Positions 21,623-23,921 of a stretch of DNA of 47,309 nucleotides are shown here, piece by piece (the first letter of the stretch is position 1; each line of letters opens with the position of its first letter). The DNA is taken from NCBI GenBank assembly GCA_038884455.1, contig JAWABU010000010.1, positions 1 through 47,309 on the forward strand, read 5' to 3'. The DNA is from Candidatus Thermoplasmatota archaeon. GTDB taxonomy: Archaea > Thermoplasmatota > E2 > DHVEG-1. A model generated the notes under the pieces. The model ran no database searches. It had not been told where the DNA came from and saw only the letters and a list, made by a program, of their open reading frames with translations. Position numbers and translations under genes: made by a program.

Positions 21623-22015
21623 TTATTCAACTTTATTAGTTATAATTTGTATTTGGACGTAAGCTGATTTTTCTGCGCATCTATCAATGCGATATATTTT
21701 ATTTAATCGTTGTTCGAGTTCTTTAATTCGTCGTTGAAGCAGCCGTCGAGGCGGTATTGGCTGGTAAAAGTACGGATTTTTTCCGATTGAGTCGTTTTTA
21801 ATTTTTGTTCGGGTTATCATTTTTTTATTATACATTTTCGATAGTAATTCTCGGACAGTACTTGGATGAAGTTTAGTTCCTTTGATAATTTCCTCACTTA
21901 ATGCACCATTTTTTTTCAATAAAAAAATATAGATACGTGCTTCTGCTCTAGATTTTAATAACTCAAAGACTGCAAGTTCTGTAGTTTTATCGATAAGACT
22001 CTTTGACCGCAGCAT
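21623..22015 (-). CDS. Winged-helix transcription regulator (TrmB/MarR-like), upstream of the RND exporter
   Basis: 130 aa. Residues 15-75 form a winged helix: ELLKSRAEARIYIFLLKKNGALSEEII, then the recognition helix around TKLHPSTVRELLSKM. A helical region at about 90-110 (RRLLQRRIKELEQRLNKIY) could dimerise. It is the first gene of a two-gene minus-strand operon with the RND pump 2 bp downstream, a typical local-repressor arrangement. A TATA-like box lies at about 22038-22050, roughly 25-30 bp before the ATG, so the mRNA has almost no leader. The palindromes just upstream (22089-22138) are good candidates for its binding site. Confidence 0.8.
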   Translation of the reverse strand: MLRSKSLIDKTTELAVFELLKSRAEARIYIFLLKKNGALSEEIIKGTKLHPSTVRELLSKMYNKKMITRTKIKNDSIGKNPYFYQPIPPRRLLQRRIKELEQRLNKIYRIDRCAEKSAYVQIQIITNKVE

Positions 22016-22155: not shown

Positions 22156-23037
22156 ATGTTAGGACAAGTATCTATTAATAGAAAAAAGCATATACCTTCT
22201 TTAACAGCTATGCGCAATACGATTCAATGTGGATCATATATTCTTGATTTCAAAAAAACGGTACTTATGGGCATCATCAATGTAACTCCTGATTCTTTTT
22301 ATCATGCTACCAGAACACAATCAATTGAGGAGGCAGTAGCATATGCACAGAAAATGATACAGGAAGGAGCTGATATCATCGATGTCGGTGCCGAAAGTAC
22401 ACGACCTGGTTCTGACCCAATATCAGTTGACGAAGAATTATCTCGCATTATTCCCGTCGTTAAAAGACTTGTTGAAGAATGTTCTGTTCCCATTTCAGTT
22501 GACACGTATAAACCAAAAGTCGCTGAATCTTGCCTAAAAGTAGGTGCTCACATAATTAATGACATCACTGGATTGACAAATAGTGACATGAGAAAGGTTG
22601 TTGCTCAATATGACGTTCCAGTAGTTCTTATGCATATGCAGGGAACTCCGAAAAATATGCAGCAAAACCCAGTGTATACTGACGTTGTTGCTGAAATTAA
22701 ATTATTTTTTATGAAACAAATTGAAAAAGCGCAGAGTTCAGGAATACAGAAAATTATACTTGATCCCGGGATTGGTTTTGGAAAAACTGTTACTCATAAT
22801 CTTAATATTCTCAAAAGACTACAAGAATTTCAAGATCTTGGATTCCCTATTCTTGTTGGTCCTTCCCGTAAATCGTTTATTGGAACAATTACAGGTTTAC
22901 CCGTAGAACAACGGTTAGAAGGAACAATCGCAGCTGTTGTTATTGCATGTATGCATGGCGCTCATATTGTTCGGGTGCATGATATTGCAGCGTGTAAGCA
23001 TGCAGTTCAAATTGTTGATGCTCTACGAGGTGTATAA
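22156..23037 (+). CDS. folP: Dihydropteroate synthase (folP)
   Basis: 293 aa. It joins the pterin pyrophosphate (from HPPK) to p-aminobenzoate or a related aromatic acid. DHPS signatures are all present: MGIINVTPDSF, GADIIDVGAESTRPG, PISVDTYK, INDITG, VVLMHMQGTPKNMQ, ILDPGIGFGKT, VGPSRKSFIG and HIVRVHDI. The ATG at 22156 adds about 18 residues before the next ATG at 22210; the shorter start is possible, as neither has a clear ribosome site. folK starts 4 bp after the stop, so they are co-transcribed. Some archaea use DHPS-like proteins for tetrahydromethanopterin instead, but the adjacent folK favours a folate-type route. Confidence 0.95.
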   Translation: MLGQVSINRKKHIPSLTAMRNTIQCGSYILDFKKTVLMGIINVTPDSFYHATRTQSIEEAVAYAQKMIQEGADIIDVGAESTRPGSDPISVDEELSRIIPVVKRLVEECSVPISVDTYKPKVAESCLKVGAHIINDITGLTNSDMRKVVAQYDVPVVLMHMQGTPKNMQQNPVYTDVVAEIKLFFMKQIEKAQSSGIQKIILDPGIGFGKTVTHNLNILKRLQEFQDLGFPILVGPSRKSFIGTITGLPVEQRLEGTIAAVVIACMHGAHIVRVHDIAACKHAVQIVDALRGV

Positions 23038-23041
23038 GAGA

Positions 23042-23533
23042 ATGGTACAGGTTTATCTTGGACTCGGATCAAACATAGGTGATAAGGAAAAAAACATACA
23101 AAAAGCAATACGCTCCATAAGAGAACTCTACTCAATAACAAAGATTTCAAAACTGTATCATACCGAGCCGGTAGGATATAAACAGCAGGATTGGTTTCTA
23201 AATTGCGCAGTTGAGATTGAAACAGATGTACATCCAGAAATTATTTTGGCATCTCTCCAGATGATTGAGAAAAAAATCGGTCGAACAGAGACTCGAGTAA
23301 ATGGTCCTCGAACTATTGATATCGATCTATTATTCTACGGCGACAAAAGTATGAATCGGGTTAATCTTACGATTCCTCATCCTAGACTTCATGAGCGTCG
23401 TTTTGTTTTACAACCACTGCTTGATCTGAATCCTGGTTTTCGACATCCAATTCTAAAAAAGACGATTCGAGAGCTTTACGATAACTTATCCGCACCGGAA
23501 CAGGTTCAACTATACAAAGAGAGCTTTTTATAA
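23042..23533 (+). CDS. folK: 2-amino-4-hydroxy-6-hydroxymethyldihydropteridine pyrophosphokinase (folK)
   Basis: 163 aa from the ATG at 23042. An in-frame upstream start (22937) would overlap folP by 100 bp and is not supported; GAGGTG at the end of folP gives a ribosome site about 10 nt upstream. HPPK motifs are clear: VYLGLGSNIGDK, YHTEPVGYKQQDWFLNCAVEIET, NGPRTIDIDLLFYG and IPHPRLHERRFVLQPL. It transfers pyrophosphate from ATP to 6-hydroxymethyl-dihydropterin, and the product is the substrate of the DHPS next door. Folate-type HPPK is unusual in archaea, which often use the unrelated MptE enzyme instead. Confidence 0.95.
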   Translation: MVQVYLGLGSNIGDKEKNIQKAIRSIRELYSITKISKLYHTEPVGYKQQDWFLNCAVEIETDVHPEIILASLQMIEKKIGRTETRVNGPRTIDIDLLFYGDKSMNRVNLTIPHPRLHERRFVLQPLLDLNPGFRHPILKKTIRELYDNLSAPEQVQLYKESFL

Positions 23534-23582: not shown

Positions 23583-23921
23583 ATGCGGCTTTGTCGAGAG
23601 TTTTATTTTGATGCAGCACATTTTATCCCAAATTATAAAGGGAAATGCGAACAACCCCATGGTCATACCTATAAATTAGAGGTGGTTCTTGAGGGTAATG
23701 TACAGCGAGACGGCATGGTTGTCGATTTCTGCATCGTGAAAAAGATTGTTGAATCTGAAATAATCGAAAAACTAGACCATCAAAACCTTAATGACATCAT
23801 CGATACTCCGACTGCTGAACGTATTGCCGAATGGATTTTTTCACGCCTAGAAAACAAACTTCCTGTGTATTCAATTAAACTTTGGGAAGGCAGTAGTAAA
23901 TGGGTAGAAAAAATACGATGA
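23583..23921 (+). CDS. 6-pyruvoyl-tetrahydropterin synthase / QueD family, Cys-Glu variant (PTPS-I/III-like)
   Basis: 112 aa from the ATG at 23583; GAGGT at 23569-23573 lies 9 nt upstream, which decides this start over an in-frame TTG at 23574. It has the zinc ligands His13 (DAAHF), His26 and His28 (HGH), and the catalytic DH pair in KLDHQNLND. The active-site motif reads GKCEQPHGHTY: Cys22 as in QueD and Glu23 at the PTPS-III position. PTPS paralogs with both residues are known to form 6-hydroxymethyl-dihydropterin from dihydroneopterin triphosphate, replacing FolB. Its position 50 bp after folK fits that role. It could also, or instead, act in queuosine/archaeosine synthesis as QueD. No folE or folB is in the window. 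Confidence 0.88.
   Translation: MRLCREFYFDAAHFIPNYKGKCEQPHGHTYKLEVVLEGNVQRDGMVVDFCIVKKIVESEIIEKLDHQNLNDIIDTPTAERIAEWIFSRLENKLPVYSIKLWEGSSKWVEKIR

Follow-up and report, generated by a model that had tools for sequence, protein, structure and literature searches.

The operon folP-folK-PTPS, encoded in the window (the whole stretch of 47,309 nucleotides analysed here, contig C10 of a Thermoplasmatota MAG of 1.70 Mb and 97.9% completeness, hereafter G000), raises the question of whether a single small PTPS protein can serve both folate synthesis and the synthesis of 7-deazaguanine tRNA nucleosides in an archaeon. Automatic pipelines would label the gene queD and leave a gap in the folate pathway.

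A PTPS with adjoining Cys and Glu in a folate operon

The gene is the third of the operon, with folP and folK directly upstream on the same strand:

22156..23037, + strand: folP, dihydropteroate synthase (TIGR01496, 346 bits against a cut-off of 163; PF00809, 301 bits)
23042..23533, + strand: folK, 6-hydroxymethyl-7,8-dihydropterin pyrophosphokinase (TIGR01498, 139 bits against a cut-off of 54; PF01288, 140 bits)
23583..23921, + strand: PTPS-I/III-type enzyme (COG0720/PF01242), 112 aa, matching PF01242 and TIGR03367
23646..23651, + strand: codons for Cys22 (TGC, 23646-23648), at the position of the QueD-type nucleophile, and Glu23 (GAA, 23649-23651), at the PTPS-III position

The open reading frame extends from an ATG at 23583 to a stop at 23921 and contains the motif GKC22E23QPHGHTY; its extent, its Cys-Glu pair and its position behind folK, which scores above its family cut-offs, are all as the initial annotation had described them. 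The ATG is the likely start, as the N-terminus that follows from it, MRLCREFYFDAAH, is common to the orthologues. The protein matches the PF01242 profile with 116.6 bits (cut-off 22.4) and the QueD equivalog TIGR03367 with 105 bits (cut-off 89.25), and its AF2 model (pLDDT 89.9) superposes on QueD and on PH0634 with TM scores of 0.88-0.90. It carries the Zn-ligand-like His13, His26 and His28, the pair Cys22 and Glu23, the pair Asp65-His66, and Glu102; except for Glu23, all of these are invariant among the 13 orthologues. The roles of the histidine ligands and the Asp-His pair in PTPS proteins we take to be established.

PTPS proteins are classified by their motifs, CxxxHGH marking PTPS-I (QueD) and ExxHGH marking PTPS-III, the FolB bypass, while CExxHGH hybrids, PTPS-I/III, exist and can serve the folate as well as the queuosine pathway (PMC5041015). 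Through CEQPHGH, the window PTPS matches all three motifs; PTPS-II, the biopterin PTPS, is ruled out, as it needs CxxxxxHGH and the spacing here is CxxxHGH. With CExxHGH already published as the signature of the hybrids, the class is known and the window PTPS is best filed as a new archaeal member of it (PMC5041015). It shares with the published hybrids the motif, the small single-domain architecture, the presence of a preQ0 pathway and the absence of FolB, but differs from them in its archaeal (Thermoplasmatota) host, in its place as third gene of folP-folK-PTPS, in being the sole non-phage PTPS of its genome, and in the use there of GCHY-I instead of FolE.

Among other characterised systems, PTPS-III proteins (Plasmodium PTPS, Rickettsia PtpS-III, Pyrococcus furiosus PF1278) have a Glu at the site of Glu23 and substitute for FolB or MptD; however, PTPS-III proper may lack the Cys that the window PTPS has as Cys22, and P. 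furiosus has a separate PTPS-I (PF0219), of which the window genome has none. The closest solved relative by sequence is PH0634 of Pyrococcus horikoshii (PDB 2dj6, 2dtt; E 2e-22, 42% identity, TM about 0.88), whose Glu aligns with Glu23 but which has a Trp in place of Cys22. E. coli QueD (6-carboxytetrahydropterin synthase, PDB 4ntk) shares the fold, the CxxxHGH motif and the TIGR03367 assignment, but has a non-acidic residue in place of the Glu and is only about 28% identical. For the PTPS of Plasmodium vivax, two structure entries, E37A and E37C, are labelled as mutants of a "catalytic residue", which supports a catalytic Glu at this site. The nearest named relatives of the protein are in Thermoplasmatota MAGs, including SM1-50, followed by those of Altiarchaeota.

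Folate and preQ0 genes in the genome and the order

Our survey set comprised 53 genomes of the window organism's order. FolB was found in none of the 53, and MptD was absent from G000, from all 21 genomes of one search and from all six order genomes of another; we therefore rejected a dedicated dihydroneopterin aldolase (DHNA) elsewhere in the genome, which the initial annotation had named as evidence against a bypass. FolE is likewise absent, and GCHY-I (FolE2/MptA family) is found in 48 of the 53. QueC-family matches occur in 52 of the genomes and TGT in all; in G000 itself, QueC scores 261 bits and GCHY-I 242 bits, and a TGT of the archaeosine type is present. The partners expected of a PTPS-I (QueC, GCHY-I and TGT) are thus encoded together with the context expected of a PTPS-III (a folP-folK-PTPS operon, with neither FolB nor MptD).

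In most of the order, the PTPS is ~165 aa long and usually adjoins queC; the 16 sequences read all have Gly or Arg at the site and none has Glu. The short form, as in the window, occurs in 13 genomes, on chromosome-like contigs. As to a second QueD, also raised in the initial annotation, the sole other PTPS of G000 (G000:C9:18759-19361), whose contig of 48 kb is phage-like, reads CRHLHGH, with Arg in the position of Glu23; standing without Glu among phage-like genes, it was rejected as a second chromosomal QueD and may be foreign to the host, leaving the window PTPS as the only non-phage PTPS of the genome.

Glu23 accompanies folP and folK

We found folK in 11 of the 53 genomes (G000, G011, G043-G047 and G049-G052), and all 11 have a short PTPS with Cys-Glu and keep the gene order folP-folK-PTPS; the conservation of Glu23, on which the initial annotation had made its proposal depend, is thus complete among the folK-bearing genomes of the order. 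As motif and operon are kept together in ten genomes besides that of the window, they are not a chance pattern. In nine of the 11, a UbiA-type prenyltransferase lies directly 3' of the PTPS, and at eight of these nine loci a divergent DtdA-like gene precedes folP in the fetched stretch; the operons of G000 and G011 have neither DtdA nor UbiA beside them.

The two remaining genomes with a short PTPS, G010 (91% complete) and G048 (84% complete), lack folK. At the same locus they retain DtdA, PTPS and UbiA without folP and folK, no relict of which was found in the gaps of the locus, and the Glu23 codon is replaced by CGG (Arg) in G010 and AAA (Lys) in G048, yielding Cys-Arg and Cys-Lys. Their PTPS proteins nevertheless keep Cys22, the histidines, Asp65-His66 and Glu102, and their QueC is intact, as would be expected where the QueD role alone is left. 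A dual-role enzyme that had been freed from folate synthesis would show just such a pattern. In the PTPS tree, the placement of G048 has moderate support (80/73) and that of G010, on a long branch, poor support, so that one or two losses are both compatible with it.

Comparison across archaea and CPR bacteria

Across archaea, MptD is found in none of 18 Glu-bearing but in 11 of 14 Glu-less genomes tested (Fisher p 2.8e-6, a value that overstates the evidence, as the PTPS tree requires only three Glu changes). An independent-pairs comparison on the tree likewise has few Glu changes to draw on, and we therefore take the co-variation of Glu with folate genes as suggestive and not as independent proof. 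The rule that Glu means no MptD was true in every genome tested; the rule that Glu means FolK, also considered, holds in the order but fails in Altiarchaeota.

The CE homologues of Altiarchaeota (60-64% identity) mostly adjoin queC, often near GCHY-I, while those of Peregrinibacteria and Jacksonbacteria, with the motif CENLHGH, are flanked by folP and folK, and through these two kinds of neighbours the hybrid motif is tied to both pathways. Glu-bearing Altiarchaeota mostly have no FolK, but mostly encode an MptE-like protein (PF01973, a family that is not specific), so that they plausibly need 6-hydroxymethyldihydropterin as well.

A putative dual-function enzyme and its alternatives

Taken together, we consider it likely that the window PTPS is a bifunctional PTPS-I/III hybrid. 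Both functions that the initial annotation had thought possible gain genomic support and stand as predictions, the FolB bypass from the lack of FolB and MptD and the linkage of Glu23 to folK, and the dual role from a preQ0 pathway with no other non-phage PTPS. The two chemistries, and the residues assigned to them, we infer from the published subfamily. The enzyme would act on 7,8-dihydroneopterin triphosphate or, should the archaeal GTP cyclohydrolase branch operate, on the monophosphate, and in a Glu23-dependent reaction would yield 6-hydroxymethyl-7,8-dihydropterin, which FolK and FolP, from the same operon, would convert to dihydropteroate; with the PTPS supplying these two enzymes, dihydroneopterin aldolase would be unnecessary. 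At the same Zn site, Cys22 would serve as the nucleophile in the formation of 6-carboxytetrahydropterin, from which QueE and QueC would make preQ0 for tRNA archaeosine (possibly queuosine). Such an enzyme would fill the missing dihydroneopterin-aldolase step in uncultured archaea with bacterial-type folK and folP.

The protein could instead be a QueD (PTPS-I) only, with Glu23 and the folP-folK neighbours incidental and 6-hydroxymethyldihydropterin made by an unrecognised enzyme. It does pass the TIGR03367 equivalog cut-off, Altiarchaeota keep the Glu in an operon with queC and no folK, and non-orthologous replacements of DHNA occur in nature. Yet the loss of Glu23 coincides exactly with that of folP and folK from the same locus; MptD-bearing genomes are without Glu and Glu-bearing ones without MptD, and the Altiarchaeota, which mostly encode MptE-like proteins and are devoid of MptD, likewise have a gap to fill. 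We regard this explanation as unlikely. Still less probable is a folate-only PTPS-III with Cys22 as a relic, in which case the 7-deazaguanine of tRNA would come from another QueD or from salvage. While the purely folate content of the operon, the phage-type second QueD in the bin and a Vut_1-type transporter beside a bacterial-type TGT (G000:C13) would agree with it, Cys22 is invariant even where Glu and folP-folK are gone, and folK-bearing relatives have QueC but no second PTPS. The archaeal PTPS-III-like PH0634, whose structure is solved, is moreover without the Cys, which need not persist in a PTPS-III.

Extending the bifunctional reading to the whole group, the CE-type PTPS, shared with Altiarchaeota, may toggle between dual and single function, replacing the ~165-aa QueD of the order and, where folP and folK were deleted (G010, G048), losing Glu23 to become QueD-only; we see the chances of this scenario as evenly balanced. 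If it is true, these two lineages amount to a mutagenesis experiment made by nature, in which catalytic promiscuity can be studied. Natural close pairs, with Glu and folP-folK on one side and Lys or Arg without them on the other, suit the question of how a single residue confers or abolishes a second reaction in the PTPS family.

Origin of the folate genes and other 7-deazaguanine loci

Although the host is archaeal, folP and folK (window 22156-23533) are of bacterial type. Further homologues that we fetched belong to Altiarchaeota, Caldiserica and CPR bacteria, and this distribution, together with the presence of folK in only 11 of the 53 genomes, suggests acquisition of folP and folK by horizontal transfer; a plasmid search with FolK returned solely bacterial homologues, all of <60% identity. 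Divergent from folP, the window encodes a TrmB-like winged-helix regulator (21623-22015, - strand), which could be a putative controller of the folate operon.

The phage-like contig of G000 encodes PHROG QueD-like and QueE-like proteins, a GCHY-like protein, a dCTP deaminase and an exonuclease. Its QueE-like, QueD-like and GCHY-like genes (G000:C9:1-40000; L048 / L049) suggest a phage 7-deazaguanine modification of DNA, and the contig is possibly a binning contaminant. A second short PTPS, with CANLHGH, is found in G042 (G042:C59; L050 / L003), where it adjoins topoisomerase- and helicase-like genes and shares the contig with a GCHY-I gene; this too resembles a mobile or viral element that carries preQ0 genes.

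G000 also encodes a bacterial-type tRNA-guanine(34) transglycosylase (L136:1501-2643, corresponding to G000:C13:38151-39296; TIGR00430, 454 bits), adjoined by the Vut_1/YhhQ-type transporter gene and a GatB-domain gene, and similarly strong matches occur in five more genomes of the order (one checked). The archaeon may make or salvage queuosine besides archaeosine.
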